From a virus: DNA of 40,096 bases. Positions 1 through 40,096 of this stretch are shown here, piece after piece (positions within the stretch are counted from its first letter, which is position 1; each line of letters begins with the position of its first letter). The translations under genes and the position numbers were made by a program. The notes below the pieces were generated by a model, which made no database searches, had not been told where the DNA came from, and saw nothing but the letters and a program-made list of their open reading frames with translations. Where the stretch lies: the IMG/VR virus record IMGVR_UViG_3300042261_001320, positions 1-40,096 of that record. One strand, 5' to 3'.

Positions 1-127
1 CTTGGGATGACTGAGGCAGAACTCAGGCGTACTGTACGTGGGAGGGCTGGTTCTCCTGACTTCATGGAGCGTGCCCACTTGGCCACTCTGGCCGACGCTG
101 TCGTCCCGTTTCAGAATGCGGCCAAAG
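1..127. repeat. Left copy of the 127-bp end overlap (circular genome)
   Basis: Bases 1-127 are identical to 39970-40096. An exact overlap of this size at contig ends is what a de Bruijn assembler leaves on a circular or circularly permuted molecule (k=127 is a usual setting). The overlap lies inside one open reading frame, so it is not a packaged terminal repeat with its own regulatory content. Confidence 0.95.
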
Positions 128-1119
128 AGGGGTTGAAATCCAAGATCGATGCCTGGAACGATCCGCACATGAGCAAGGCTGAGTTTCTCTACAAGTTGTT
201 CATGTACGCAATATTGCCTAGGATGGTGAAGTACTGGGCTGCAGTCCATGTGTATGCGTGGTTGAAGGGGGACGGCGGGGATGATCCGGAGAAGCGCAAG
301 AAGCTGATGGCTGAGTACCAGGATATGCTCGATTCCGTGCCGAAGCACTCTCAATTGAACTATGATGTGGTGCCGCTCGGGTGGGCAGACGAGAAAGCCA
401 AGAAAGTGCTCTATCTGCGAGGTCCAGAGACAGAGTTTGAGCGAATCTTTGGCGGTCTTGCCGACCTCGCATATCGTTCGATCAAGGGCAAGGATGAGGT
501 TCGGAACGGTCTCGAGTTGATGAACCTTGCCGGATCGCAGTTGCCGGGCGTGAATCCGATACTCGATCCTCTTCGCATGTTGTACGACTACTACGTCGAC
601 AAGCAGAACCCCTATGACCGTTGGAGTGGGGGGAATGTCCTGAACAACGACGAAATGACGGCAGGTGGAACTTACGCGGCTAAGCCCTTGGGAAAGAAAA
701 TCTGGAATGATATGACGTTTGGGCTCATCACGCGGTTCGACCTGGAGAATCCCTATCCTGGGGAGCGAAACCGCATCGAGAAGGTCCTGCAGTGGCCACT
801 GATAAGTAATGCGGTAGGACGTTGGTTGCGTGTGTCTGATACCGGCCGGCGGCAAGCTGTGGCGTTGGAAAAAGAGCCGGAGAACAAGCGGAGATCTCGA
901 TTGGTGCTGGATGCAAAGGAAACCGTTCGCGAGATGCTCGATGGGAAACTGTCTGCTACCAGCGAAAAGCGAATGCGGTCCCGAGAATATCAAGACGTAG
1001 TTTTCTCTGAGATCATGGCGGCTCGCGACAGGATAGGCGTGGACCCCATCGTCCAAGCACTCAAGAAGTCTGGGCCACGTCATGAAGCCGGCCTGAGACG
1101 ATTGCTGGAGTCGCGGTGA
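1..1119 (+). CDS. C-terminal end of the giant polyvalent ejection protein (continues from 40096)
   Basis: This is the 3' end of the gene that starts at 34993. The codon frame entering at base 1 (CTT GGG ATG) is the same frame that leaves the window at its right end, and the 127-base end overlap joins them. Counting the overlap once, the protein has 2,031 residues. This portion supplies about the last 370. It is mostly charged and helical, with a Pro/Asp/Asn-rich stretch near bases 540-800 (motif ILDPLRMLYDYYVDKQNPYD). I recognise no catalytic motif here. An apparent ATG at base 7 is internal, not a start. It is the last gene of the late operon and lies just before the attachment-site candidate, so in the prophage it would sit at one end. 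Similar C-terminal helical blocks are known as LPD (large polyvalent protein) domains; assignment to a particular LPD is not certain. Confidence 0.9.
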   Translation, partial: LGMTEAELRRTVRGRAGSPDFMERAHLATLADAVVPFQNAAKEGLKSKIDAWNDPHMSKAEFLYKLFMYAILPRMVKYWAAVHVYAWLKGDGGDDPEKRKKLMAEYQDMLDSVPKHSQLNYDVVPLGWADEKAKKVLYLRGPETEFERIFGGLADLAYRSIKGKDEVRNGLELMNLAGSQLPGVNPILDPLRMLYDYYVDKQNPYDRWSGGNVLNNDEMTAGGTYAAKPLGKKIWNDMTFGLITRFDLENPYPGERNRIEKVLQWPLISNAVGRWLRVSDTGRRQAVALEKEPENKRRSRLVLDAKETVREMLDGKLSATSEKRMRSREYQDVVFSEIMAARDRIGVDPIVQALKKSGPRHEAGLRRLLESR

Positions 1120-7762: not shown

Positions 7763-8448
7763 TGAAGGATCTGCATGGGTCGAAGGGTGATGGATGGATA
7801 GGGGTCGACCTGGACGGGACCCTGGCGTTCTACGACGGATGGAAGTCGGCTGGCCACATTGGCGAGCCGATCCCGCTCATGCTGACGCGGGTGAAGCGAT
7901 GGCTGCTGCAGGGTCGGGATGTGCGGATTGTCACCGCCCGTGTGTTCCCGGGTAAACCCGATGCCGCGGAGTGCCGGTCGGCGATCGAGTTCTGGCTGGA
8001 GAAGCACGTGGGGACCGTGCTGCCGATCACGCATGCCAAGGATCACATGATGATCGAGCTCTGGGATGACCGCGTCGTGCAGGTTGTCCCGAATACCGGA
8101 GAGCGAGCGGACGCTCGGGGCGTGCCTTGCACGGCAGTCGAGGAGTTCGTTCGTCAGCAGCGGGCGTGGAGTGACAAGACGTTCGGACCTGGTCGGCGCA
8201 CGATCGGAATCACGCGGCACATCGAGAAGGAACTGGCGGAGATCCGCCTGGATCCGCTGGACCTCATGGAGTGGGTGGACGTGATCATCCTGGCCTTGGA
8301 TGGCGCCTGGCGCGCAGGGCATAGCCCGGAATCGATCGGACGTGCGCTGCGCGAGAAGCAGGTTCGGAACATGACGCGCAAGTGGCCGGCGGAGGTTCCG
8401 GAGGATCAGCCTACGGAGCACGTGCGGGGAGCTCAGAATGCAGATTGA
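7762..8448 (+). CDS. HAD-like phosphatase fused to DUF550 dATP/dGTP pyrophosphohydrolase
   Basis: 228 aa from ATG 7762 (GTG 7759 possible). N-terminal half: HAD motif I DLDGTLA (Asp16, Asp18), later VRIVTARVFPG and KDHMMIELWDD, typical of small phage HAD nucleotidases. C-terminal half (about residues 131-212): RQQRAWSDKTFGPG, HIEKELAEIRLDPLDLMEW and NMTRKWP, the signature of the DUF550 / MazG-like all-alpha dATP/dGTP pyrophosphohydrolases. Joined, the enzyme could hydrolyse a deoxynucleoside triphosphate and then dephosphorylate the monophosphate. It would act in the cytoplasm on nucleotide pools during replication, next to replication genes. It overlaps the downstream gene by 11 bp. Confidence 0.8.
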   Translation: MKDLHGSKGDGWIGVDLDGTLAFYDGWKSAGHIGEPIPLMLTRVKRWLLQGRDVRIVTARVFPGKPDAAECRSAIEFWLEKHVGTVLPITHAKDHMMIELWDDRVVQVVPNTGERADARGVPCTAVEEFVRQQRAWSDKTFGPGRRTIGITRHIEKELAEIRLDPLDLMEWVDVIILALDGAWRAGHSPESIGRALREKQVRNMTRKWPAEVPEDQPTEHVRGAQNAD

Positions 8449-8826: not shown

Positions 8827-9327
8827 GTGAACAGGGTTGGAGAGATGGTCGAAGGAAAGTTGCTGGTGTGCATGACGGGCGACGAGTACGCCGCGCTGCA
8901 GACCGCGGCAGCCGCGCTGGCTGGGTTGGTTGGCATGGCAGACGGCACGCCGGTGATACTGGGTGGCGCCAAGCGCTCAAAAGCGATGCCGGCTCCGCGG
9001 CAGGAACGCATGTGCGACGTGTGCGGCAAATCGCTTGGGCCCGACGCGCCCAATGCGCGGAAGCGGCATGCTGGGTCGTGCGCTGCGGAGTACCACAGGC
9101 GCGAGAGCAAGGAGTGGCTGAAGCGAAACCCAGGGTACCGGCGTGGAAAGAACGCACGCGGTGCACGGGATCTTCGGAAGGCTGAGCCGGTTGCGGTGAA
9201 CATCGCGCCGCCGGACGGTGATGGTGCGGTTGAAACGGAGCTGGACCGCACGGCCGCGCATGCGCGGATCAAAGCAGCTCTGGCGAATGCGGATCGGAAA
9301 CTGGGGAAAGGAGTCGAGACACTATGA
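8827..9327 (+). CDS. Zinc-finger protein with basic linker
   Basis: 166 aa from GTG 8827 (AAAGGG 7 bp upstream). The N-terminal helix TGDEYAALQTAAAALAGLVG precedes a zinc-finger pattern about residues 60-84: CDVCGK, then RKRHAGSCAAEY (C-x2-C and H-x4-C). A strongly basic stretch follows (WLKRNPGYRRGKNARGARDL), then a final helix. Likely a nucleic-acid-binding accessory protein. The stop overlaps the start of the ParB-like gene (ATGA), implying coupled translation and perhaps joint function. Confidence 0.65.
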   Translation: MNRVGEMVEGKLLVCMTGDEYAALQTAAAALAGLVGMADGTPVILGGAKRSKAMPAPRQERMCDVCGKSLGPDAPNARKRHAGSCAAEYHRRESKEWLKRNPGYRRGKNARGARDLRKAEPVAVNIAPPDGDGAVETELDRTAAHARIKAALANADRKLGKGVETL

Positions 9328-10853
9328 GTTCGGTGCGTTTGGGGTTGCAGGAGGTAGTGCTGGACGAGGTCGTGCTGAGCAAGCACAACCCGCGGGTGAT
9401 TGACCCGCAGGACCCGGCGGTGAAGGAACTGGCGGAAAGCATCGCGTCGAGCGGATTGCTGCAGCCGGTTGTGATGCGGCCGCTGGGTGAGAAGTTTGAA
9501 CTGCTGGCCGGCGCCAGGCGGTATATGGCGCACCGGCTATTGGATCGGCCCACGATCCTGGCCATCGTGCGCGATCTGTCGGACGAGCAGGCGATCGCCG
9601 TGACGGTGCTTGAGAATCTGCAGCGGCAGGACTTGAAGCCGCTGGAGGAAGCCCGGGGCGTCAAGGAACTCCTGGACGCTGGCCGGACCATCGAAGAAAT
9701 CTCCGCCGACGTCGGCAAGTCGACGGCGTGGGTTTCGCGCCGGGTGAAGTTGACGGAACTGTCGCCGGCGTGGATCGGCGTGCTGGATGGAACAGCAACG
9801 GATGCCGACGACGCACAGGCCGCAAAGTACGCGGAACTGCGGAAGACGCCGACGGGAGCGCTCGATTTGCTCGCGCATACTCCGGTCCACGTGCAGGACG
9901 AGTTGCTCGCGCAGTTCCTGCGGCACAGTCAGCCGGACATGACGTTGAGCGGAATGCGGCAAGCGATCGAGTACTGCATGCTGAACCTCCGCAACGCGCC
10001 CTGGTCGATGGACGCGGAAGGCCTTGGTGCCGGTCCTTGCAGTGCCTGCATGTCCCGGTCGGACGCCATGGCCGATCTGTTTCCGGACGATAACGACGAT
10101 GGGGCGCGGTGCCTGGACAAGGCCTGTTACGAGACCAAGCATCGGCTCTGGATTGACCAGCAGGTCAAGGCGGCGCAGCGCAAAGCGAAGGGTCCAGTTC
10201 GGCTGATTACCACGACGTGGAACCGCGGTTTTGGAGACCGCGAGAACGTTCTGAGATCGTGGCAGTACGAGGAGGTGGCGAAAGGCGTCGAGGGAGCGGT
10301 GGCCGCGATCGACATCGATGGGCAGGACGCTGGCAAGTTGCGCTACATCAAAGTCCATGAGGAGACCGATGATCTGCCGCGCGAGGCGAAGCGGCAGAAG
10401 CAGCAGGCGACCACTGAGCAGTATCGCCTCGCGCATATGGTCGAGTCGTTGGAGGACTGGCTTGAAGCCGCCGAGAAGTGTCCGCCGGCGCTGGATGAAC
10501 CTAAGGGCATGCTTGCAGCCGTGGTCATGTACGGGATCGCGGACCCGGCCGACGCTGCAATTCAGCACACTCGGGATGGATTCAATCGCCTGATCGACTA
10601 CAACGACGAACTCGCGAACTTGGCTTGGGCGGAACTCAAGAAATCGATGTGCTGCGCACTGCCGTGGTTGGGTGATGATCTGAGCACGCTGGACGTCGAG
10701 AGGGAGACGCCCGACCTGATGCTGATGATCAGTATTGTGGGACTCGATGCGCAGGACTTCATCGACGCGGCCGCGAAGGCCTATCCGTGCGTGATTGCGA
10801 ACGATCCGGCGCCGGCGAAGGGGAAGAAGGCGAAGGGGAAGAGGGCGGCGTGA
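9324..10853 (+). CDS. ParB-like protein with C-terminal Cys cluster
   Basis: 509 aa. The N-terminal 150 residues show the ParB/Sulfiredoxin fold: KHNPRVIDPQDPAVKELAES, SGLLQPVVMRPLG, LLAGARRYMAH (the GERR-type CTP-binding motif) and ENLQRQDLKPLEEARGVKEL. An HTH follows (TIEEISADVGKSTAWVSRRV). Around residues 235-270 are CSAC and CLDKAC, a zinc-site pattern also present in plasmid- and phage-encoded ParB-like proteins. The last 200 residues are helical, ending in a Lys-rich tail (AKGKKAKGKRA). No ParA gene lies nearby, so classical partition is unlikely unless host ParA is used; DNA clamping, nuclease or regulatory roles are alternatives. Translation is coupled to the zinc-finger gene before it. 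Confidence 0.85.
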   Translation: MSSVRLGLQEVVLDEVVLSKHNPRVIDPQDPAVKELAESIASSGLLQPVVMRPLGEKFELLAGARRYMAHRLLDRPTILAIVRDLSDEQAIAVTVLENLQRQDLKPLEEARGVKELLDAGRTIEEISADVGKSTAWVSRRVKLTELSPAWIGVLDGTATDADDAQAAKYAELRKTPTGALDLLAHTPVHVQDELLAQFLRHSQPDMTLSGMRQAIEYCMLNLRNAPWSMDAEGLGAGPCSACMSRSDAMADLFPDDNDDGARCLDKACYETKHRLWIDQQVKAAQRKAKGPVRLITTTWNRGFGDRENVLRSWQYEEVAKGVEGAVAAIDIDGQDAGKLRYIKVHEETDDLPREAKRQKQQATTEQYRLAHMVESLEDWLEAAEKCPPALDEPKGMLAAVVMYGIADPADAAIQHTRDGFNRLIDYNDELANLAWAELKKSMCCALPWLGDDLSTLDVERETPDLMLMISIVGLDAQDFIDAAAKAYPCVIANDPAPAKGKKAKGKRAA

Positions 10854-11311: not shown

Positions 11312-13279
11312 ATGAACGTTCGAGAGATCAAAGAGCGATTGAATGGGCGGGCACTTGAGGTGTGCGAGATGCTGCTGCCCAGCGGGAAACTCGAGAACGG
11401 GAAGTGGATCTGTGGCGACGTGCATGGGAAACAGGGGACCAGCCTGAAGGTTACCCTGCAGGGTCAGTATGCCGGTACGTTCTTCGACTGGGGAGCGGAT
11501 GCCGTTGAGAAGAGTGGCGATCTGATCAAGCTCTGGCAATTGACCAAGGGCGTCGAGTTCGGCCGCGCGATCGAGGAGATCAAGCAGTATCTTGGTATCC
11601 GGGATGAAGACCAGGAGATGATCCAGGCGAGCCGGCGGACGAAAGTGGTGGGTCGCGGCCAGGTGCCTCGCGACTGGAAACCGGTGCAGGAAGGTTCCCG
11701 AGTGTGGAAGTGGTTGACCGAAGTGCGGAAACTGACGCCGGAAACCATCCGCGCTTTCGAGGTCGGTGAGTTCGAGGGCAAACACTGGGACGGTAAGGAC
11801 CATTGCTGCGTCGTGTTCCCGTTCTTTGAGATGGTCTGGAACGAAGGGGCCAAGGCGTGGCGCAAGGGATCGCTGGCTCTGGTGAAGTTCCGGGACATCC
11901 AGGACAAGGGTTACGAGCGGACGGGTCCGAGACTGGATGAGGGAGGAAAGACGTTGCTGTTCGGAATGCCGCGGATCCCGGAGCAGGGCCGCGATCTGGT
12001 GATCACGGAGGGTGAACTGGACGCCATGGCGCTGGACCAGTTTGGGTTGCCGGCTGTGAGTATTCCGTTCGGAGCGCAGCCGGCGAAAACGGATGGGGAG
12101 TTGAGCAAGGGGCACAAGCGATGGTTGGATGAGTGCCACCAGTGGCTGGAGCATTTCGAGACCATCTACCTGGCGTTCGATCGTGACGCCGCGGGGCAGA
12201 CCGGAGCTCGGCAGGTGGCGCCGCGGCTGGGCCTCGAGCGCGTGCGGATTCTGCTGATGCCTGGCGGGTGGAAGGATGGGAATGAGGCGCTGGTGATGGG
12301 CGCGACTCCAGACGAGATCTTCGATGCGACACGGAAGGCGCGTGGGTTCGATCCGGAGGAGTTGCGGAGTCCGATTGAGTTGCTCGACGAGATCGCCGCG
12401 GAGATGTTCCCGGAGCGGTATGGTGAACCCGCTGGGGATGATCTTCCGTTCACCATGCCTTTCAAACTGCGCCGCGGCGAAGTGACGATCCTGCATGGGT
12501 ACAACTCGCATGGGAAGACGGTGCTGCTTTCGTTCATCCTGTCTTGGCTGGCGGCAAAGTATGGGAGGAAGTCGCTGATCGCCTCGCTGGAAATACCGGC
12601 GCGGAAACTGTTGCGGAACATCCTGAGGCAGGTGTTTGGGCGGCCGCGCGCGGCGGATGAGAAGCAGTTGCGGCAGTGGGTGGAGTGGCAGTCGCAGTTT
12701 TTCTGGGCGTATGCGCACGTTGGCCAGGCGGATCTGGATCGCGTGCTCGAGGTGTGGCGCTACGGTGCTCGGCGTTACGGCATCGAGTATTTCGTCCTGG
12801 ACTCGCTGATGATGATCGCGGGCCTCGAGGGCGAGGATTACGACGGGCAGAAGGCGGTGGTGGACAAGTTACTGTCGTTCGCGGCGACCGAGGCGTGCCA
12901 CGTCTTCCTGGTTGCGCATGACAAGAAACCGGACCAGCGGCATCCGGAGCAGAAGCATTACCCGAGTCGGTACGACATCAAAGGGTCCGGAAACCTGAGC
13001 GACTTGGCGTGGAATGTCCTGTGTGTGTGGCGGAACAAGGAGAAGGAAGAGAAGTTGGCGACGGCGAAGGAGTTGCCGGAGAACGATGCCGATCGGAAGA
13101 AGATCGAGAACGACTGGCGCTGGAAGGAAGACGCGTTGCTGATCGTGCAGAAGCAGCGTGAGACCGGGGAGGAACCAGTGAAGAGGCTGTTCTTCCACGC
13201 CGGGCCGGAGAGTTCGTGGCAGTACCGGGAGCACCAGTCGGATCCGATTGAACCGCTGGTGGAGGAGTTGAGGTTCTGA
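11312..13279 (+). CDS. Primase-helicase, T7 gp4-like
   Basis: 655 aa from ATG 11312 (GGGGGA upstream). N-terminal primase region: a remnant of the zinc-binding domain with only one Cys (WICGDVHGKQGTSLKV), then a TOPRIM domain with Glu233 (LVITEGELDAMALDQFG) and Asp290/Asp292 (YLAFDRDAAGQ). The C-terminal DnaB/RecA-type helicase has Walker A GYNSHGKT (396-403) and Walker B ending at Asp497 (YFVLDSLMM), followed by FLVAHDKKP. It should unwind the phage fork as a hexamer and may prime synthesis; loss of the zinc Cys residues, which read template sites in T7, raises doubt about sequence-specific priming. The stop overlaps the next ATG. No phage DNA polymerase is seen, so host polymerase is expected. 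Confidence 0.92.
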   Translation: MNVREIKERLNGRALEVCEMLLPSGKLENGKWICGDVHGKQGTSLKVTLQGQYAGTFFDWGADAVEKSGDLIKLWQLTKGVEFGRAIEEIKQYLGIRDEDQEMIQASRRTKVVGRGQVPRDWKPVQEGSRVWKWLTEVRKLTPETIRAFEVGEFEGKHWDGKDHCCVVFPFFEMVWNEGAKAWRKGSLALVKFRDIQDKGYERTGPRLDEGGKTLLFGMPRIPEQGRDLVITEGELDAMALDQFGLPAVSIPFGAQPAKTDGELSKGHKRWLDECHQWLEHFETIYLAFDRDAAGQTGARQVAPRLGLERVRILLMPGGWKDGNEALVMGATPDEIFDATRKARGFDPEELRSPIELLDEIAAEMFPERYGEPAGDDLPFTMPFKLRRGEVTILHGYNSHGKTVLLSFILSWLAAKYGRKSLIASLEIPARKLLRNILRQVFGRPRAADEKQLRQWVEWQSQFFWAYAHVGQADLDRVLEVWRYGARRYGIEYFVLDSLMMIAGLEGEDYDGQKAVVDKLLSFAATEACHVFLVAHDKKPDQRHPEQKHYPSRYDIKGSGNLSDLAWNVLCVWRNKEKEEKLATAKELPENDADRKKIENDWRWKEDALLIVQKQRETGEEPVKRLFFHAGPESSWQYREHQSDPIEPLVEELRF

Positions 13280-13722
13280 TGAGCGCGAACGCAAAGGATC
13301 TGGGGACCGGCTGCCGGCTGTGCGGTGGGAATGGGTGCTTATTCTGCGCGCCGGCGGTGCCGGTCGCGACGGGGCCCGCTCCCGTGCTGCCACCGACGCC
13401 GGCGCCGATGCCAGTGGTGGCCGCGGCTCCGGTGGAGGAGTCGAGGAGAGGTCTTGCTTCGCCTTCGCTCGCTTCGCCATGCGGAGTTGGCGCTACGGGA
13501 GAACGAGTAGTGTTTGTGCCGGCGCGGGGTGGCCGGGTGTCGGATGAGCAGGTGAGGCAGGCGACCGCGGTGATCAAGGAATGTGGGCGGGCCACTACGA
13601 GTTTGCTGCAGCGGAGACTTAGACTGGGCTACACGCAGGCCTGCAATCTGATGGACCTGCTCGAGGAGAAGGGAATTGTTGGTCCGACGCGTGGCATGGA
13701 ACCGCGGGAGATACTGGTATGA
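13279..13722 (+). CDS. Stand-alone FtsK gamma-like winged-helix protein
   Basis: 147 aa. Residues about 88-147 (DEQVRQATAVIKECGRATTS, LLQRRLRLGYTQACNLMDLL, GIVGPTRGMEPREILV) match the FtsK/SpoIIIE gamma domain, which reads short oriented sequences on the chromosome. The usual motor and membrane parts are absent. The N-terminus carries CRLCGGNGCLFC, a Cys-rich knuckle, then a Pro/Ala linker. The linker DNA contains a dispersed-repeat copy (13453-13492) that adds SRRGLASPSLASPCGV. The gene starts on the helicase stop (TGATG) and lies about 0.9 kb before the terminase. It could recognise host oriented sites or phage sites used for packaging or replication; both are inference. Confidence 0.85.
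   Translation: MSANAKDLGTGCRLCGGNGCLFCAPAVPVATGPAPVLPPTPAPMPVVAAAPVEESRRGLASPSLASPCGVGATGERVVFVPARGGRVSDEQVRQATAVIKECGRATTSLLQRRLRLGYTQACNLMDLLEEKGIVGPTRGMEPREILV
13453..13492 (+). repeat. Dispersed GC-rich repeat, copy B, inside a coding region
   Basis: CTTGCTTCGCC...CGCTTCGCCATGCGG and following bases: rich in CTTCGC units and more divergent than copies C and D. It falls in the interdomain linker of the FtsK gamma-like gene without breaking the frame, as expected of a mobile or slippage-born repeat tolerated in a linker. Confidence 0.45.
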
Positions 13723-31080: not shown

Positions 31081-31887
31081 ATGTCGGGCGAAATCCAGAT
31101 CACGTCGAATGTGACGCTGGCGGACGGTGTCGTTGTGACGCCAAGTCTGCTGCGTGAGTTGATTACCAGCCTCTCCGCGGAGATCCTGGCGGGAGCGGTC
31201 GGGAGCCGCGAGCTGGCACCAGGGTCCATTTCCGAAGACAAACTGGATTCGACGGTCCGCTCGCAACTGGGAATCCCGGACGGAAGCATTACCGTTGCGA
31301 AGTTGGCCGACGGTATCCTGAGCGCCGACGCCACGGGCCGAGCCAAGATGGCGGACGGATTCGTGACGGCTGCCTTGATCGCCCTGGCGACCATCACGGC
31401 GGATCGACTGGCGACCGACATTGTCTGGCCGGTAGGGGCCATCATTGAATGGCCGAACGAGGTTGCGCCGGCGGGGTGGCTGTGGCTGAACGGCCAGGCC
31501 GTGTCGCGCACCACATACGCCACGCTGTTCGCGCTGGTCGGCACCAGGCACGGGCAGGGCGACGGATCCACCACGTTCAATGTTCCGGACACGCGGGGCA
31601 GGTTCAAGCGCGGGTGGGACAACGGGGCCGGCGTGGATCCTGACGCAGCGTCACGAACGGCGGCCGCCACGGGTGGAGCAACCGGTGACCATGTTGGGTC
31701 GTTGCAGGCTGATTCAGTCAATGCGCATACGCACACCCTCAAGGGGGCTGTAGCGCCAATTACTGGTGCTGGCACTAAGACGCTTGTGAATCCAACCGGA
31801 ACGGTTACGGTGAACACGGAGGCTTCCGCGGGCGGCACCGAAACGCGACCGGTGAATGTCGCTTTCATGGACATCATTAAGTTCTGA
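31081..31887 (+). CDS. Tail collar fibre protein, paralogue 1
   Basis: 268 aa. Residues about 115-180 hold the phage tail collar domain: WPVGAIIEWPNEVAPAGWLW, LNGQAVSRTTYATLFALVGT, TFNVPDTRGRFKRGWD. Then come NAHTHTLKG and the terminal RPVNVAFMDIIKF, as in T4 gp12/gp37-like collar fibres where His-x-His motifs can bind metal. The N-terminal part has short stalk-type repeats (LADGILSADATGRAKMADGF). It forms a host-binding appendage. The next gene is a diverged copy with the same layout. Confidence 0.85.
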   Translation: MSGEIQITSNVTLADGVVVTPSLLRELITSLSAEILAGAVGSRELAPGSISEDKLDSTVRSQLGIPDGSITVAKLADGILSADATGRAKMADGFVTAALIALATITADRLATDIVWPVGAIIEWPNEVAPAGWLWLNGQAVSRTTYATLFALVGTRHGQGDGSTTFNVPDTRGRFKRGWDNGAGVDPDAASRTAAATGGATGDHVGSLQADSVNAHTHTLKGAVAPITGAGTKTLVNPTGTVTVNTEASAGGTETRPVNVAFMDIIKF

Positions 31888-31894
31888 GGTCGTT

Positions 31895-32731
31895 ATGCCT
31901 GGAACCGTCGAACGGATCGCACAGTTCAAGTGGCCGGAAGGAAGCGGCGAGGCGAATGCCGACCTGAAGCGCAGTCACGTTCTGGAAGCCGAAACGTTGC
32001 GGAGGGCGTTGCTGGACGCCGTGTGGCGAATCGCCGCGAACGGAGTAACCAGGGACTGCATCCAGTACGCGTCGATTCCTGAGTCTGCGCTGACAGTCGC
32101 ATTGCAGGCTCAGGTGGGTATAGACGCTGGAGCCGTGACCACGCGGAAGTTGGCAAATCAGGCGCTGACGGCCGACGCTACAGGGCGCGCGAAGGTGGCT
32201 TCCGAGTTCTTCACGGCCGCGAAGTTTGCGTTGCGCTCGATCACGTTGGAGCATATGGCTGCAGCCGTTGGGGCGTATCGCATTCCGACGGGAGCGACCT
32301 GCTGGTTTGCGGGTGAGACCGCTCCGGAAGCTTGGCTGACGTGCGACGGCAGCGAGAAACTCATTGCCGACTATCCGGCCCTGGCGGCTGTGTTAGGAAC
32401 CCACTGGGGCGTCGCATCCCGGGGTCCGCTTTGGTTCAAACTTCCCGGGCAACGGGGTCAGTTTTCGCGGGGATGGGCATCGACCTCTACGGCGGATCCG
32501 GACAAGGCGAACCGGACAGGGGGAAACCATGTCGGATCGACTCAGGCGGCCGCGTTGAAGTCGCATACGCATCCGGTCAAGGCGGAGAACTACGACAGCA
32601 TACAGGGCGGCGGAACTGGTCAACAGGGCTTCCTGTTGCCGATTTCATCCCTAACTTGGACAACACTGGCAATGCCAGTTTCGGAGACCCGTCCGAAGAA
32701 CATCAGCTTTCTGAAGATCATCAAGACGTAG
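31895..32731 (+). CDS. Tail collar fibre protein, paralogue 2
   Basis: 278 aa from ATG 31895, 7 bp after paralogue 1. Shared layout: stalk LTADATGRAKVASEFFTAAK, collar WFAGETAPEAWLTCDGSEKL with LPGQRGQFSRGW, then HTHPVK and terminal RPKNISFLKIIKT. The N-terminal 90 residues differ wholly from paralogue 1, suggesting a different attachment point on the virion. Two collar-type fibres may recognise two receptors or form a heteromer. Confidence 0.85.
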   Translation: MPGTVERIAQFKWPEGSGEANADLKRSHVLEAETLRRALLDAVWRIAANGVTRDCIQYASIPESALTVALQAQVGIDAGAVTTRKLANQALTADATGRAKVASEFFTAAKFALRSITLEHMAAAVGAYRIPTGATCWFAGETAPEAWLTCDGSEKLIADYPALAAVLGTHWGVASRGPLWFKLPGQRGQFSRGWASTSTADPDKANRTGGNHVGSTQAAALKSHTHPVKAENYDSIQGGGTGQQGFLLPISSLTWTTLAMPVSETRPKNISFLKIIKT

Positions 32732-32746
32732 AAGGGAGAGTGGACA

Positions 32747-33973
32747 ATGGGCTACTTCGAGAACCTGCAGGCAGCGGGATACCGGTACGACCCGAACGCG
32801 GGCGGATCCGGCGGGTACGTGCGGGGCGACACGCGGTGGAATGCCGCGACCCGGAGTTTCGACACGAACAGCAATGTAGGCGGGACGGTCTTTGTGCGTG
32901 GGCGCGCCGGCCTTCAGGCTGCGGTGGCCCCCTCGGCGCCGGCGGCGCCCAGCGCTCCGGCGCCGGCGGCAGGGATCGCCGCGGTGACGGCGGCGCCGTT
33001 TGTCGGATCGGCCCGCACGCGGGTGAACATTCCGCAGGTCAGGGCCGACATGATCGACATGGGTATTATCCCGGATGCCTCGTCGGCTGGCATCGGATCC
33101 GTGCGGTTCCAGGGCGTGGATCCGTTCACGATTCAGGATGACGGGATCCTGCAGGAACTGAACCGCCAGGCGGAGTCCGACTTGAAGTTGGGCGGAATGC
33201 TGTCAGCGCAGGAGGAACGGGACGCGCAGCAGGCGGCGCGCGCGGCCTTCTCGGCCCGGGGCATGGTCTACTCGGATCCGGCGGCCGCGGCCGAGGTGCT
33301 GGCCCGGGACCGGTTCGCCCGCGAGCGCCTGGCTGAGCGCAGGGCGTTTGCCGGCGACGTGGAGAAGGCAAACCAGACTCTGGACCTGGCGAACCAGTCG
33401 GCCGTAAACCGGGCCAGGGAAGTCAACGCACAGGGCGGACTGCAGGCGGCAGTGGCGAACAACGAGAGCGCACGGGATGTGTTCCGTACGGTCACAGGGG
33501 CCCGGACGTCGATCGCGACGGCGAACCAGTCGGCCGGTCTGACGGCGGCGACGTCGAACCAGCGGGCGGCGCTCGAGCAGCAGGGCATGGCGGACACCTG
33601 GGCGCTGGGCCAGGACCGGCTCCGTGCGGACCAGGCGCAGGCCGGCTTGCAGGCGGCCGTGAGCATGCGCGGGCAGGACATCGGGCGCGAGACGAGCATC
33701 TTCAACACGCAGGCGGGGATCTATGGGGACCAGCTTCGGGCAGCGCTGCAGCAGGCGCAGTTGGCTGCTGACCAGCGTAAGGAGTCGCGTGCTGGAGTAC
33801 CCGATTCTGCCATGGGAAGCGCCGACAGGCAATCTGGACAGTATTTCAGCAGGGCCCAGTGGTCCGCCAGAGATAGGGCAACAGGCATGGCGGCGGCCCG
33901 CATCCCGGCAAGTGCGAGTCTATACCGACCACTGGGGGGGACCCCGTATTGGGACACCAGGCAGTACCGCTAA
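32747..33973 (+). CDS. Ejection (internal virion) protein candidate, Gln/Ala-rich
   Basis: 408 aa. An N-terminal patch (GYFENLQAAGYRYDPNAGGS) and a Pro/Ala linker (APAAPSAPAPAAG) lead to long Ala/Gln/Arg-rich helices (RDAQQAARAAFSARGM; QTLDLANQSAVNRAREVNA; LRADQAQAGLQAAVSMRGQD) with a repeating heptad feel. This composition is typical of podoviral internal core or injection proteins that leave the capsid with DNA. It is the first of three such genes. After about residue 345 the frame becomes less helical; another frame is open there too, so the exact C-terminus deserves a check. Confidence 0.65.
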   Translation: MGYFENLQAAGYRYDPNAGGSGGYVRGDTRWNAATRSFDTNSNVGGTVFVRGRAGLQAAVAPSAPAAPSAPAPAAGIAAVTAAPFVGSARTRVNIPQVRADMIDMGIIPDASSAGIGSVRFQGVDPFTIQDDGILQELNRQAESDLKLGGMLSAQEERDAQQAARAAFSARGMVYSDPAAAAEVLARDRFARERLAERRAFAGDVEKANQTLDLANQSAVNRAREVNAQGGLQAAVANNESARDVFRTVTGARTSIATANQSAGLTAATSNQRAALEQQGMADTWALGQDRLRADQAQAGLQAAVSMRGQDIGRETSIFNTQAGIYGDQLRAALQQAQLAADQRKESRAGVPDSAMGSADRQSGQYFSRAQWSARDRATGMAAARIPASASLYRPLGGTPYWDTRQYR

Positions 33974-33994
33974 CAGGAAAGGTTGGGAAACATC

Positions 33995-34996
33995 ATGCCC
34001 TACAATTTTGGCCCGCAACCGATTCAGAGTTACTTGTCTGGCCTGAACGCTCTGAAGGAGGATGAACGCCAGGAGAAGGACCGCCAGCGGCTTCTCACGG
34101 AGCGGATCGACCGCGTCCGGAAGGAGGCCGAGCTGCTCGGGGTCCCCAAGGCGGACGTCCAGGCGTCCAGCGTAGGCGAACTTGAGGCGCATATCGCGGA
34201 TCGCAAGCGCAAGGAAGAGGAGCGCCAGCGCCTGGCCGGCCGCATGATGCTCGAGCGCGATCAGCGGGCCGTGGTGGCAGCCGGGCAGAAGTTCGGAAGC
34301 CTGTCGCCGTCGCAAATCCAGTACTTCATGAACAACACGGGGGCGCCATCGACCAACGATGCGGCCGCGGTGTGGGACAAGATGGGCACCGCGGACCGGG
34401 CCATGGCGTTCGGCGTCCGGGATGAGCGGCTGATCAACAAGCTGATGCAGGATGACCAGGCGGTGGCACGGCTCAACGCCAGCGAGGCGGAGCGGAAGCG
34501 CAAGGCCGATGAGGCGGCGGCACGGCTCAACGCCAGCGAGGCGGAGCGGAAGCGCAAGGCCGATGAGGCGGCGGCAGGTGCGAAGCGGATTGGGACCGCT
34601 GTGGAACTGCCGGACGGCAACAAGGGGGTGTGGACCTCGCCGAGCCAGGTGCAGGTGCTACCAAAGGATAAGGCGCCCAAGTACAAGAAGGAGACATACC
34701 AGGGCGACTTCGTGCGCACGGCCGAGGGGACGGTCCAGGAGTGGAACCCGACCAAGGAAGTCTACACGCCGGTGAAGCCGGACCCGGTCACGGTGGAGTT
34801 AGTCTGGGACAAGGACAAGAAGGACTTTGTCAAGAAGCCGGTCGAGAAGGACCGTTGGCAGGGCGTCCAGATGAGAACGAAACTGCGTGAGTTCGATTCC
34901 CTTGACGAGGCTAATGCGGCGAAGCTCCCGAAGGGAACGCCGATCATCGTGGTGAACCCGAAGACGGGACGGAAAGAGGAGGCGCTTGTCCAATGA
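33995..34996 (+). CDS. Ejection (internal virion) protein candidate with duplicated helix
   Basis: 333 aa from ATG 33995 (AGGAAAGG upstream). The first 95 residues are very charged helix (LTERIDRVRKEAELLGV; HIADRKRKEEERQRLAGRMM). Then comes a perfect tandem duplication of 18 residues (ARLNASEAERKRKADEAA) at 158-193, and a Lys-rich C-terminal half with beta segments (RIGTAVELPDGNKGVWTSPS; GTPIIVVNPKTGRKEEALVQ). The stop overlaps the start of the giant polyvalent gene (ATGA), implying coupled synthesis and likely assembly in the same internal complex. Confidence 0.6.
   Translation: MPYNFGPQPIQSYLSGLNALKEDERQEKDRQRLLTERIDRVRKEAELLGVPKADVQASSVGELEAHIADRKRKEEERQRLAGRMMLERDQRAVVAAGQKFGSLSPSQIQYFMNNTGAPSTNDAAAVWDKMGTADRAMAFGVRDERLINKLMQDDQAVARLNASEAERKRKADEAAARLNASEAERKRKADEAAAGAKRIGTAVELPDGNKGVWTSPSQVQVLPKDKAPKYKKETYQGDFVRTAEGTVQEWNPTKEVYTPVKPDPVTVELVWDKDKKDFVKKPVEKDRWQGVQMRTKLREFDSLDEANAAKLPKGTPIIVVNPKTGRKEEALVQ
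34466..34573 (+). repeat. Perfect 54-bp tandem duplication
   Basis: Copies at 34466-34519 and 34520-34573 are identical base for base, coding the 18-residue charged helix unit twice. Identity at synonymous positions shows a recent duplication. Assembly collapse or expansion at this site is possible, so copy number in nature may vary. Confidence 0.9.
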
Positions 34997-37900
34997 TTCG
35001 ATTCCTCAGTGAGCTCGATGCCGGCGCCGGAGACAACACGGATCAGAGCAAGCCTGGCGCAGTTGGTGAAACCACCAATGAAAACGGATCCGGACGCATT
35101 GTGTTTCTGAGCGAAGTCGAGGAGCAGAGGAAGCAGGACCAGGCGCGCGCCGAACTGGACGCCAGTAACCAGGAGTGGCTGGACTGGGCCAAGAAGCAGA
35201 AAGCCGAACGGGATGCCGCGGCCGCCGGCGAGCGCTTCAATGCGCAGGTCGCCCGGGGTGCGGAGCTGGCCAGGCGGGGTCAGGAGACTCCTGAGACGCA
35301 GGCCATGCACGAGCGGTTCGCGCCTGGCGTCAAGGCCATGGAGATCTGGAACGCTTCGCGCACTGCGGACCAGGCTGCCGGCGATCCGGGCGCCGCGAGT
35401 GCCGATTCGCCCGGAGCCGGAGGCGTCAAGTTTGTGGCTCCGGTACCGACCTACGGCGAGAACATGAAGCGGGCATGGCAGGCTGGCCGCCTGGATGCCG
35501 ATCTGAACCGCCTGAAGTTCGAGGCCGCCATGGGGCGCCAGGATGAACTCTTTGTCGATACGATCGAGAAGAAGTACCAGGGCTGGAAGGATGAGTTTGG
35601 CCCGCGCAATGAGAGCGTGTTCGGGATCTACTCGGCGAACGCCGTACAGATGCTCCCGGAGATGCTCTCCGGCGCCGCGTCCGGGGCCGAGATGGCAACT
35701 CAGGCGGGAGGCGCCCTCGGGGCAGCCGGGGCGGTTCTGGGTGGTCCGGCTGGGGCGCTTGCCGCAGGTCTTCCGGCTGCCGTCGCTGGCTTTGCAGCCG
35801 GCAACACGGTGCACTGGTGGGAGCAGGGCACCGGCGAGATCTACTGGGACCTGCGCAAGGCAGGCGTGACGCCCAAGGCGGCATCGGTGGCAGCGATGAT
35901 CGGGGCCGTGCCGTATGCTTTGGTGGAGCAGCTCCAGTTCTCTCAGCTTGTGCCTGGTGCTTCGCGCCTCGTGAAACCCGTGAAGGACGCGATGAAGCGC
36001 GGGGTGAAGGCGGCGGTTTTGGCGGTGCTGCAGCAGGGGGCGCAGAATACCCTGAAGGAAGTGGGCGAAGAGGGCCTGCAGAAAGTCATCACGGACGCGA
36101 CCGAGTTGACGGCGCGGTCGATCGAGGGCCAGGTTGAGGCCAAGGAGCTGCCGGCGGAAGCGGCGCAGATTGCCAAGGATGCCTGGAACGAGATGGTGGA
36201 CACCTTCGGACCTGTCGCGGTGCTCGAGTTGCCCTCCACGGCGGCAGGCGTGGCGCGCGTCTCGCTTGGCGGCCGTAAGGGCCGGACGGCGGCCGCTGGC
36301 GAACGCCCGGGCCAGGCGGAAGGAAAGGCGGCGCCGTCAACCATAGTCGAACTGCCCCTCGATGGGACGCGGAGTCAGCAGGATCCGGATCCGCTGTCGG
36401 CCGACGTCGACCGCATGATGGCAAGCCCGGCGGCCGGTGAGGAATCCGACTGGATTGCTCAGCAGGAGCGCTTGGACGCCGAGGACCGGGTCCGGGAAGC
36501 GCTTGGGGAGCCGCGGCGGGAGCAGGTGTCGGGCGTTCAGACGGAGCAATCCGGGGTTGAGCAACCGGAACCGGATGTCCAAAAGACGGAGACGGAATCG
36601 CTGGATCAGGCTGCCAAGTCAAGCGATCGTCCCCTGGCTGGAATACTGACCCCAGAGCAGAAGGCGGAGACCGAGAAGGAATGGGCTCGGCGCCTTGATG
36701 AGGTGAACGGCTCGAAACCGGCGACGGCAAGCCCTGATATGGGTGGCGAGCAGCAGGTGAAGCGCGTGGGGGATGGGTTGGTGGATCTTGCCAACCGTGC
36801 GGTGGTCGATGTTTCGAGTGCTTCCAAGATGAAGGTTCGCTACATGGAGGTGAGCCCTGACCTTGCGCAGCAGGTTGGGGAGCAGATCAAGGTTGACCTG
36901 TCCGGTTACTCGCACGCCATGGACGGGAGCGCTGTAAATCACATCCTGAAGCGGCACGGTGAAGGCGGCGAGGTGGTGAAGGGACAAGTCGCGGTCACCA
37001 CTCAAGACTTCCGGCATCTTCCGGCTGTTGTCTCAAACCCCGATGCCGTGCAGCACATCGGCAAGAACGACCGAGGGATGGATCTGTTTCGGTTCAAGAA
37101 GCGCATCAACGGTCACGTCTTCGTCGTAGAGGAGGTCCGGACAGGACGAAAGGAACTGGCGCTTACGTCGATGTGGAAGGTTGAGTCCGGGGCGAGTCAT
37201 GCCTCGACCGAAGTCAAGGCCTACCCTCGCACGTCCGAAACGATCCCCGGAGTCTCAACTGGGAACATTGTCCCTCCTGGTGGCGCTTCCGTCAAGACTG
37301 CGGGTGCGGCGAAAGGGATACCGAGATCGAATACGAGCGTTTCCGGAACGTCGGGCCGGGTGAAGGGAAGTCCCGGGTTGGAGTCGGTAAGGTCGGCGTC
37401 GCCAGCGATGCAGAGACCAGCATCTTCTGGACAGAACAGACAGAATACTGAAACCCGCGTCCAGTCCGAACCCTCGGAGCGGGCCGCTGCCCCGCAAGGC
37501 GACACGTCCCGGCCCGGAGCGGGCCCCACACCAGGCTTCCGGGAAACGCCCTTGCCGGCGGATGATCCATCCTTCTCCGTGCTGCCCCTCGGGATGCCGG
37601 AGGCGGTCGACCTGGCCAAGGGGCTGCTTGGCGGCCGGTTCCCGCGGATCCTGAAGACGCTCAGGTTGCTTCATGGGCGTGCCGCCGGCGTTTTCCGGGC
37701 GCAGGGGCCGTTAATGGAGATCGAGCTGCGGGCGGACATTTTCAACCTGGTCCAGTCCGATGAGAAGGAAGCCCTGAAGGCTCAAATCGTCCAGGACGTG
37801 CTGCTGGGGGCCGGCGTCAACGTTGGAGTCCTGACGGACGAGGCGCGCACGCAACTGCTGCTGAAGCCGGATCTGCGCAACGAGATCGAGCAGAGGTATG

Positions 37901-40096
37901 CGGCCGCTTTGGCTCAGAAAGTGGAGGAAGCCAAGAAGCGGGATCCGACGTGGGCCATGGCCGTGGTGATCCATGAGATAGGGCACCTGGTCGATTACCT
38001 GCCGGAGCACACCCTTTCCCGCGGGAACATCCTGGGCCACATTGCGGCGTTGAAGACGTTCATGCGACAGGCGATCGGAGAGGCGCCGGCGAACCGGGAC
38101 GAAGCGATCGACGGCCGGGAGCGGGCGGAACTGCGCCGGCTGGCGGAGAAGCAAACGAGATCGGAACTGGGCAAGGGGGCAGCCAAGGCGGATCTGAACG
38201 CCCGGACGGCTGAGATCTACAAGGAACTGATCGCCGATCTGTTCGAGAAGCGCGGCCTGGTGACCAAGGGCCAGGTGGTGGCGGAACTCGAGCCCCTCAT
38301 CGCCTGGTGGCGTGGCACCGAGGTGATGCCGAATTACTTCAAGGATCCTAAGGAGATGTACGCGGAGGCGTTCTCGGCCTGGATCAACAATCCGGGAGCC
38401 TTTCAGAAGCGGGCGCCGGCGACGTGGAAGCTGCTCCGTAACTACATGTCTGCGCGGCCAGAGTTCGAGGCACGGCACCAGGCGCTGCAGCGGGCGATCT
38501 CCAGCGGACAGGTCTACCGAGATCGCGTGGAGAACCTGCGGAAGTCCTGGGAAGAAGCCGGCAAGGTCGCCTTGTCGATCGAGGATGCCGCTCAGACCAT
38601 GAGCTGGCGCGAGCGAAAAGATACGTTTCTCACGCTCGTGTGGCGCCGGTTCGGGCCAATCTACGCCCGTATGAAAGGCCGACCGAGGGAGCAGGTAGAA
38701 ACCGTCGACCGCGCGATCGGGGACATGCTCAGACACCGGAACCAGCATCAACGGTATCTGCTCGATCTGCAGAACACGGTGCTGGCCCCGCTTCAGGAAC
38801 AGAACCTGACCTATGAAGACCTCCGAGAGTACATGTGGCATCAGTACGTCGTGCATGAGGGCTTCGATAAGGCGAACCCGCTCGGGTGGACGGCCGCGGC
38901 GAGCCAGCAGCGTCTGGACGAGATGCAGGCGAACCTAGGACCCGAGCGCTGGCAGGCGCTCGCACGGGCTCGGGGAGCCTTCTGGGAGAACAGGAAGGCG
39001 CGGGTGCTTTCGCTGTTAAAGAAAAGTGGTGTTCCGTCCGCGTCGCAGGTGGAACTGCTGTTCGAACGCGAGTTCTACCAGACGATCCAGGCGCAGAAAG
39101 GGGGAACTGTCGATCCGGAGGCCTACACGCTTGATTCGATGATGGCGGGAGTCTATGGGGGAACTGTTGGACCCAAGATCTTTCAACGCATTGGATACTT
39201 GGGAAAGGCGCGTGATCCATTCTTGGCGACGGTCGAGAAGGATTTATCGCTGATTTCCTGGGCCTACCGGAACATGGCGAAGTGGGCTGCTGTTGAATTT
39301 CTGCAGGACATCAACGATCAAGGAATGCGTGAAGCTGATTACCGGTACAATCCTTCTCTGCAACGTCGCGAACCGATCGATCGGAAGTCGCCGCGTATGA
39401 CGACCCTCTATTTGGTTCGCGACGGACAGGTGCGGGCCTACTACATGAGCAAGTCGCTGGCGGAGGAATTTGAAGCCGAAGATCCTGGTTGGCTAACGAC
39501 TGCTCTGAAAGTCGCGCGGTGGTTTTCCCGTCCTGTGAAGGCGTTGGCGACAGGCCTTAACTATGGCTTCCTCCCGGTCAATTACTGGCGTGACACGAAG
39601 GAGTACGTCATGAACATGCCAGGGGTCTACTCCAGGGTGTTCGGACGCAATTCCTATCTTCGGTATTGGAAGCGAGCAAATCAGGCCGCTCGGTCGCTTA
39701 TCAGTGGTCATCCTAACGAGGACGCCAAGGCTGCTTTGGACTCCATGGTGCTCGTGCCGGCGGATATGGTCTTTTCGCACGAGGAGGACATTGATAGTGT
39801 CGAACGGATCATGTTGAGGAACGGTGTCTCCGCCCGTCTGATTGGTCGAATGGGCGGTGGGCGCAGGGCATGGCAACGATTTATGCGCGGCTACACGTAC
39901 CTGATGCGGGTGGCGGAAATCGAACCGAAGATTGCCGGTTTTTTGTACCTGCGCGAACGAGCCGAGAAACTTGGGATGACTGAGGCAGAACTCAGGCGTA
40001 CTGTACGTGGGAGGGCTGGTTCTCCTGACTTCATGGAGCGTGCCCACTTGGCCACTCTGGCCGACGCTGTCGTCCCGTTTCAGAATGCGGCCAAAG
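34993..40096 (+). CDS. Giant polyvalent ejection protein: PBECR-like RNase plus HExxH metallopeptidase (5' part)
   Basis: Open from ATG 34993 to the window end and on through base 1119 after circularisation: 2,031 aa in all. Visible parts in order: charged helices (1-225); a Gly/Ala-rich hydrophobic stretch at about 226-276 (TQAGGALGAAGAVLGGPAGA) that could insert into membranes; a long Glu-rich linker; about 613-745 a PBECR-like (barnase/EndoU/colicin E5/RelE-type) domain with HILKRHG (His650, His655), IGKNDRGMDLFRFKKRINGH and LALTSMWK (Thr725, Lys729); a Ser/Pro linker; a zincin at about 980-1130 with HEIGH (His994, His998) and likely third ligand Glu1125 in EMYAEAFSAW; then about 900 helical residues, including LNYGFLPVNYWRDTKEYV near 1522, reminiscent of LPD38-like regions. 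Known polyvalent proteins enter the cell with phage DNA and act on host RNA and proteins. Confidence 0.9.
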   Translation, partial: MIRFLSELDAGAGDNTDQSKPGAVGETTNENGSGRIVFLSEVEEQRKQDQARAELDASNQEWLDWAKKQKAERDAAAAGERFNAQVARGAELARRGQETPETQAMHERFAPGVKAMEIWNASRTADQAAGDPGAASADSPGAGGVKFVAPVPTYGENMKRAWQAGRLDADLNRLKFEAAMGRQDELFVDTIEKKYQGWKDEFGPRNESVFGIYSANAVQMLPEMLSGAASGAEMATQAGGALGAAGAVLGGPAGALAAGLPAAVAGFAAGNTVHWWEQGTGEIYWDLRKAGVTPKAASVAAMIGAVPYALVEQLQFSQLVPGASRLVKPVKDAMKRGVKAAVLAVLQQGAQNTLKEVGEEGLQKVITDATELTARSIEGQVEAKELPAEAAQIAKDAWNEMVDTFGPVAVLELPSTAAGVARVSLGGRKGRTAAAGERPGQAEGKAAPSTIVELPLDGTRSQQDPDPLSADVDRMMASPAAGEESDWIAQQERLDAEDRVREALGEPRREQVSGVQTEQSGVEQPEPDVQKTETESLDQAAKSSDRPLAGILTPEQKAETEKEWARRLDEVNGSKPATASPDMGGEQQVKRVGDGLVDLANRAVVDVSSASKMKVRYMEVSPDLAQQVGEQIKVDLSGYSHAMDGSAVNHILKRHGEGGEVVKGQVAVTTQDFRHLPAVVSNPDAVQHIGKNDRGMDLFRFKKRINGHVFVVEEVRTGRKELALTSMWKVESGASHASTEVKAYPRTSETIPGVSTGNIVPPGGASVKTAGAAKGIPRSNTSVSGTSGRVKGSPGLESVRSASPAMQRPASSGQNRQNTETRVQSEPSERAAAPQGDTSRPGAGPTPGFRETPLPADDPSFSVLPLGMPEAVDLAKGLLGGRFPRILKTLRLLHGRAAGVFRAQGPLMEIELRADIFNLVQSDEKEALKAQIVQDVLLGAGVNVGVLTDEARTQLLLKPDLRNEIEQRYAAALAQKVEEAKKRDPTWAMAVVIHEIGHLVDYLPEHTLSRGNILGHIAALKTFMRQAIGEAPANRDEAIDGRERAELRRLAEKQTRSELGKGAAKADLNARTAEIYKELIADLFEKRGLVTKGQVVAELEPLIAWWRGTEVMPNYFKDPKEMYAEAFSAWINNPGAFQKRAPATWKLLRNYMSARPEFEARHQALQRAISSGQVYRDRVENLRKSWEEAGKVALSIEDAAQTMSWRERKDTFLTLVWRRFGPIYARMKGRPREQVETVDRAIGDMLRHRNQHQRYLLDLQNTVLAPLQEQNLTYEDLREYMWHQYVVHEGFDKANPLGWTAAASQQRLDEMQANLGPERWQALARARGAFWENRKARVLSLLKKSGVPSASQVELLFEREFYQTIQAQKGGTVDPEAYTLDSMMAGVYGGTVGPKIFQRIGYLGKARDPFLATVEKDLSLISWAYRNMAKWAAVEFLQDINDQGMREADYRYNPSLQRREPIDRKSPRMTTLYLVRDGQVRAYYMSKSLAEEFEAEDPGWLTTALKVARWFSRPVKALATGLNYGFLPVNYWRDTKEYVMNMPGVYSRVFGRNSYLRYWKRANQAARSLISGHPNEDAKAALDSMVLVPADMVFSHEEDIDSVERIMLRNGVSARLIGRMGGGRRAWQRFMRGYTYLMRVAEIEPKIAGFLYLRERAEKLGMTEAELRRTVRGRAGSPDFMERAHLATLADAVVPFQNAAK
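39970..40096. repeat. Right copy of the 127-bp end overlap
   Basis: Identical to bases 1-127. Inside the giant gene, with the reading frame continuous across the join. Confidence 0.95.

Follow-up and report, generated by a model that had tools for sequence, protein, structure and literature searches.

A giant phage polyvalent protein with a predicted PBECR3 RNase domain in a variable payload slot ahead of a conserved zincin-containing C-terminal chassis

The IMG/VR virus record IMGVR_UViG_3300042261_001320, analysed here over its whole length of 40,096 bases (the window), contains a single giant gene of 2,031 codons that lies across the ends of the sequence. The first 127 bases of the window (1-127) are identical to the last 127 (39970-40096), and this identity is the assembly overlap of a circular contig. 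Merging the overlap joins 34993..39969 to 1..1119 in one frame of 2,031 codons followed by a stop; if the two ends are joined without merging, the frame is lost after about 1,705 codons. The merge bore out the 2,031-aa frame across the circular join that had been proposed in a preliminary description of the sequence, in which the positions of the motifs HILKRHG (residue 650), LALTSMWK (722), HEIGH (994) and EAF (1125) were also given correctly and a Gly/Ala stretch was noted, which is indeed present and uncharged. Megablast against phages and PHROGs gave no match for the giant gene. Nor did the window protein, used as a single query sequence, match anything in viral or genome collections, so that alignments were required. 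The features of the locus are listed in the table.

Table. Features of the giant gene and of the two genes preceding it (window coordinates).
Feature	Coordinates	Strand	Basis
Giant polyvalent-protein gene, residues 1-1659 (rest at window 1-1119)	34993..39969	+	open frame; homologues
Giant gene, residues 1660-2031 and stop after merging	1..1119	+	overlap merge; tblastn to Baldr gp20
Uncharged Gly/Ala-rich stretch, residues 234-273, possible membrane segment	35692..35811	+	sequence
Predicted PBECR3 RNase domain (payload), residues 624-732; His650 at 36940, His655 at 36955, Ser726 at 37168	36862..37188	+	Pfam; alignments; model and fold matches
Low-complexity linker, residues 741-860, candidate self-cleavage region	37213..37572	+	sequence; pLDDT under 50 where modelled; cleavage conjectural
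Predicted zincin domain, residues ~861-1150; HEIGH 994-998 at 37972-37986; Glu1121 at 38353-38355	37573..38442	+	48-sequence alignment; L006 homologue model and fold match
Conserved C-terminal helical region (C2, possibly LPD38-like), residues 1181-1659, continuing at window 1-1116	38533..39969	+	homologue alignments; model; fold matches
Assembly end overlap	39970..40096	.	identity to window 1-127
408-aa Ala-rich gene, possible partner ejection protein	32747..33973	+	homologues; role suggested by position
337-aa gene, stop overlaps the ATG of the giant gene; possible partner ejection protein	33983..34996	+	role suggested by position

Residues 624-732 matched the Pfam family PBECR3 (PF18812, gathering score 30) with 74.7 bits and E=7.4e-21, and with 1e-22 when the segment was searched alone. 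Relatives of this domain were found in Helicobacter phage proteins (31-39% identical) and in metagenomic phage proteins, the nearest of which (L113) is 50% identical. His650, His655 and Gly656 are invariant across 11 PBECR3 copies, and the column of Ser726 holds either Ser or Thr, with Thr in the Helicobacter copies. Thr725 was considered as the hydroxyl residue and rejected for Ser726, which is the residue aligned with the Helicobacter Thr. The residues of the window protein fit the set of His plus Ser/Thr given by Iyer et al. for five of the six PBECR families (PMC5512222). AlphaFold2, run on the PBECR3 alignment, produced a model with a core pLDDT (predicted local distance difference test) of about 84-95, in which the histidines lie on a helix (45-55) followed by strands forming a sheet. 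When this model was compared with the PDB by VIA-align, the 13 best rows were all BECR-type toxins (Z 4.1-7.7), among them BrnT (Z 7.7), RelE, a CdiA toxin, HigB and the E. coli ribonuclease-inhibitor complex entry 1tfo (Z 5.6), whose ribonuclease we take to be colicin D; these Z values are moderate yet coherent. A Foldseek search of the model against the PDB gave no match at E<=0.001. Profile, conserved residues and fold matches uphold the PBECR-type domain of the preliminary description, and residues 624-732 are predicted to form a BECR-fold PBECR3 domain.

For the second catalytic domain, Pfam returned nothing above cut-off on the zincin segment, with weak matches to M90, ATLF and LPD1, and may simply be without a model for this zincin clade. 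Using an alignment of homologues, we detected the domain in 153 viral stretches. The columns of H994, E995, H998 and Glu1121 were invariant in 48 diverse sequences, as were a D and a G. Since Glu1121 is invariant and Glu1125 is Glu or Asp in relatives, the predicted third zinc ligand is Glu1121 (PKEMYAEAF); the HEIGH zincin noted in the preliminary description stood up to the 48-sequence alignment and the fold comparison, and the glutamate of EAF that had been named as its ligand did not. The fold was read from a model of the homologue at locus L006, standing in for the window's own sequence (1,143 aa, pLDDT 81.7, predicted template modelling score [pTM] 0.73), whose best fold rows were lethal-factor-type zincins with Z up to 8.8 over 131 aa at 3.5 A, unrelated rows reaching 5.4 or less. 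Foldseek of the L006 model against the PDB gave no match at E<=0.001. Alignment and model point to residues ~860-1150 as a lethal-factor-type zincin, and a relation to zincins of this kind has been reported by Iyer et al. for N4-like proteins (PMC5512222). Profile and structure searches had been suggested with the preliminary description as a check of both domains; BECR and zincin folds were both found, with PBECR3 above the gathering score of its profile and zincin and LPD38 without an above-cut-off match in the window protein.

To compare the giant protein with its relatives, the ORF (open reading frame) around the HEXGH motif was extracted from 80 IMG/VR loci, one contig each and a few of them near-identical. 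The distance from HEXXH to the C-terminus was 1,108 +/- 69 aa (72 complete of the 80 loci), as against 1,365 +/- 594 aa for the N-terminal part (63 complete), and window residues 1181-2031 aligned with 77 of the 80 related viral ORFs. These alignments, the PBECR3 score and the collinearity with Baldr gp20 described below place the giant frame far outside what chance would give. The zincin and the ~850 mostly helical residues after it form a constant C-terminal module, here called the chassis, in at least 80 viral loci that otherwise differ in content; the conserved region 1181-2031 had been absent from the preliminary account. LPD38 (PF18857) had no match in the window protein; one relative (L009) reached 17.0 bits (E=0.007), which is below the gathering score of 27, and many BFVD fold matches carry the LPD38 name. 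The chassis also occurs in contigs of metagenome-assembled genomes (L101-L112) labelled Planctomycetota, Kiritimatiellae, Armatimonadota, Geobacter, Bacteroidetes and Acidobacteria, so that the module spans several bacterial phyla.

Ahead of this module, Pfam searches of the N-terminal parts or whole proteins of the chassis homologues identified PBECR3 (L043), ART (L072 above cut-off, L007 and L006 below it), GGDEF (L077), DUF6884 (L022), RadC (L014, L061, L021 and L015, the first also with ddrB-ParB and phosphoribosyltransferase domains) and SNF2/helicase and methylase domains (L056, L101, L102, L031); many homologues had no Pfam match in the N-terminal part. In a chassis tree obtained by a quick search with SH-aLRT support only, the window protein grouped with the ART-bearing L012 (support 99), and the PBECR3-bearing L043 lay across a 97-supported branch from it. 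Placing the payloads on this tree required 8 changes for 7 states, the minimum possible being 6. The close PBECR3 relatives L113 and L114 had no chassis by hidden Markov model (HMM) search, L114 being complete and L113 cut at its 5' end. Tree and relatives together show that payload and chassis have had separate histories and, as the sister of the window protein on the chassis tree carries a different payload, payloads swap on the chassis.

Three further observations concern these payloads. At L077 (7139-9859) the payload slot holds the GGDEF diguanylate cyclase, directly ahead of the zincin. L024 (2309-10039) encodes a giant chassis protein with an SLT transglycosylase, a DprA winged helix (DprA_WH) and MutS domain I (MutS_I, E=9e-26). 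RadC/JAB domains occur in the phage chassis proteins of L036, L025 and L111 in addition to the four RadC loci named above.

Direct repeats were found around some of the payload cassettes. In L006 an 88-nt repeat (89%) at 9061-9148 and 9790-9877 lies either side of ART, as does a 53-nt repeat (92%) at 9423-9475 and 9870-9922 in L007, and similar repeats spaced about 450-1,190 bp in L023 and L050 bound cassette-sized stretches inside the giant genes. No repeats flank PBECR3 in the window, so that the cassette-repeat idea rests on the relatives. To judge from these sequences, the flanking repeats hint at recombination-mediated payload capture. A bolder extension, which we regard as decidedly unlikely, would make the chassis a general phage injection vehicle for interchangeable cassettes, with the repeats in the linkers serving as recombination sites and the linker peptides as sites of zincin release in the host.

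The record is that of a tailed phage with an integrase, as follows from its SU10-type major capsid protein, terminase-like gene (a match below threshold), primase/helicase, tail collar fibre genes and integrase. The giant gene is the last of the structural gene block, with tail fibre and other late genes upstream, and is preceded by the 408-aa gene, which has homologues at 13 related loci, and then, immediately, by the 337-aa gene. Downstream, after a gap of about 285 bp, follows the integrase gene (1404-2537). The homologous gp20 of the isolated Pelagibacter phage EXVC032P Baldr is collinear with window residues 977-2012, and its gene follows the tail tubular A/B genes, with a 606-aa gene in between, and precedes a tail fibre. 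In podophages such as T7 and N4 this is the position of the large internal virion protein. With unrelated catalytic domains (PBECR3 and zincin) in one chain, a neighbourhood of virion genes and synteny with Baldr, the window protein is a phage-type polyvalent protein. The adjoining integrase gene, together with the superinfection roles that Iyer et al. mention for some domains (PMC5512222), might suggest that the protein is not injected and works inside the cell that makes it, where it could, for instance, be an RNase directed at superinfecting or competing phages. This is highly improbable, given that the giant gene is last in a late structural block, that its start codon overlaps the end of the gene before it and that the Baldr homologue occupies an ejection-protein position.

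We consider it probable that the window protein is a polyvalent ejection protein that is packaged, injected and releases, through its zincin, a PBECR3 domain cutting host RNA. The protein would be made late and packed into the capsid via the C-terminal chassis, and would then travel through the tail to the next host along with the DNA. There its N-terminal part may hold it at the membrane, while the built-in zincin would cut the protein's own linkers and free PBECR3, which would cleave RNA of the host, either mRNA or defence RNA, ahead of phage gene expression. Iyer et al. have suggested that such RNases may spare tRNA and rRNA and target mRNA or CRISPR RNA (PMC5512222). Context gives good support to the proposed injection of the protein with the DNA, as does the analogy with the vRNAP of phage N4, a proven ejected protein with a matching domain order (PMC12633501) whose C-terminal 1,400 aa are needed for encapsidation (PMC5512222). 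The uncharged Gly/Ala N-terminal stretch, the exchangeable PBECR3, the last-in-block position and a chassis constant in length ahead of which the N-terminal part varies, with payloads that do not follow the chassis tree, all speak for the same interpretation. So do the PBECR3 profile, residue and fold matches, the invariant zincin motif with its lethal-factor-type fold, the place of the Baldr gp20 gene and the finding that PTXU04 gp25, which shares the C2 part, is required for infection (PMC11879866).

The preliminary description had both enzymes directed at the host, the zincin digesting its proteins and PBECR3 its RNA. The fold type is that of toxins known to cut host proteins, and the active site is intact in the 48-sequence alignment; still, such a double attack is unlikely, because the zincin sits in the constant module, outside the variable set of payloads, and self-processing has been proposed for this domain class by Iyer et al. 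(PMC5512222). As the zincin is part of the constant module whatever the payload, self-processing or a part in encapsidation is likelier than a host-directed role, and cleavage of its own chain is more probable than an attack on the host. The domains and the class of the protein, a polyvalent and probable ejection protein, were sustained by profile and fold matches, by synteny and by the size of the homologous family; of the proposed 'RNA cleavage plus proteolysis', host proteolysis is the less well supported part.

Several points weigh against the interpretation of a zincin-released, injected RNase. For none of the family members was proteomics found, the RNase activity of PBECR3 is predicted from sequence and model, and the substrate of the zincin is one that we infer. 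N4 vRNAP is packaged uncleaved (PMC5512222). The chassis part C2 is also present in Escherichia phage PTXU04 gp25 (E=2.7e-8, assumed database 100,000), which has no HEXXH and no PBECR3, so that proteolysis is not required in every relative. Sequence homology of C2 to the N4 C-terminal domain (CTD) was not significant: an HMM search gave no match, and profile-profile comparison of the chassis with N4 and nine N4-like sequences gave weak collinear matches within block-shuffled controls. The N4 CTD chains did not appear in the fold search, their sequences being present in the PDB sequence copy, which is to be read as absence only. It is conceivable, although rather doubtful, that zincin and C2 have a purely structural part in packaging or ejection. 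On this view the zinc site would come into play before assembly or in the course of it, and PBECR3 would act without leaving the full-length protein. Both the N4 vRNAP, which is packaged unprocessed, depends on its CTD for encapsidation (PMC5512222) and works attached (PMC12633501), and PTXU04 gp25 with its missing HEXXH would agree with this. Against it stands the invariance of H, E, H and the distal Glu across 48 diverse sequences, which argues for catalysis.

On the understanding that PBECR3 is an injected payload, the question of how the producing cell is protected, raised in the preliminary description, loses much of its force. The gap at 1120-1403 showed no candidate for an immunity gene and is overlapped only by an antisense 89-aa ORF. 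This is expected for an enzyme that is late, packaged and possibly autoinhibited: the giant gene is last in the structural block, and the CTD of N4 gp50 autoinhibits the payload polymerase (PMC12633501), so that a payload can be silenced in cis.

Three features of the window lie apart from the giant gene. The adjacent overlapping genes at 31081-31887 and 31856-32731 (both +) match tail collar/fibre families and are apparently a tandem duplication. An FtsK gamma domain (PF09397, E=8e-20) is carried by a 147-aa protein whose gene (13279-13722, +) adjoins that of the primase/helicase, and such a stand-alone FtsK-like DNA-reading domain is unusual in a phage. A dATP/dGTP pyrophosphohydrolase domain (PF04447, E=4e-21) is encoded at 7759-8448 (+). 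This family goes with phages having modified adenine; the scanned ORFs of the window included no PurZ.

Polyvalent proteins were predicted to be injected effectors in 2017, and which part was vehicle and which cargo had been unclear. A fixed module in 80 or more phage loci combined with exchangeable enzymes makes vehicle and cargo separable and testable; the contents of the slot offer a route to anti-host enzymes not yet known, and one may ask if delivery in the manner of the N4 polymerase extends to further giant proteins of phages.

Among known systems, the ejection set of N4 (gp50/51/52) is the closest in layout. Its gp50 (vRNAP) consists of a nanodisc-inserting N-terminal domain, the RNA polymerase and a CTD made of an HExxH domain C1 and a helical C2 (PMC12633501), an order that recurs in the window protein as a putatively membrane-linked N-terminal domain, linker, payload, linker, HExxH domain and large helical domain. 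The window protein follows the N4-like plan of an HExxH domain and a ~1,100-aa helical C-terminal domain in layout and length, an analogy of layout. Furthermore, gp50 of this Schitoviridae phage is ejected alongside two smaller proteins, and two smaller genes precede the giant gene of the window; the payload differs, being an RNA polymerase in N4 and PBECR3 here. Baldr gp20 shares the zincin and the C-terminal region and differs in its length (2,329 aa), its other N-terminal half and the lack of a PBECR3 match. Conversely, the giant proteins of Helicobacter phages (KHP30 gp11, jhp1044-type) share PBECR3, at the identities given above, but are without such a chassis and pair PBECR3 with ddrB-ParB. 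PTXU04 gp25, which shares C2 alone, is a putative polyvalent protein that the phage needs to form plaques, and it is listed among genes whose expression is toxic or interferes with infection (PMC11879866). The proposed vehicle with interchangeable effector cassettes would be comparable to polymorphic toxin systems. With the phage-type polyvalent proteins of Iyer et al. (2017; PMC5512222), which carry PBECR, zincin MPTase and LPD38 domains, the window protein has in common the giant multidomain chain, the virion gene block and the combination of BECR RNase, zincin and putative LPD-like regions, and the payload types of the chassis family are likewise shared. It differs in that the zincin and ~850 aa are seen as a single constant C-terminal module with a payload slot ahead of it, and in that RadC, which in the list of these authors is confined to the polyvalent proteins of conjugative elements, is found with this phage chassis. 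The protein class was outlined already in the literature, and what is new here is the family-level view of a fixed vehicle with swapped cargo.

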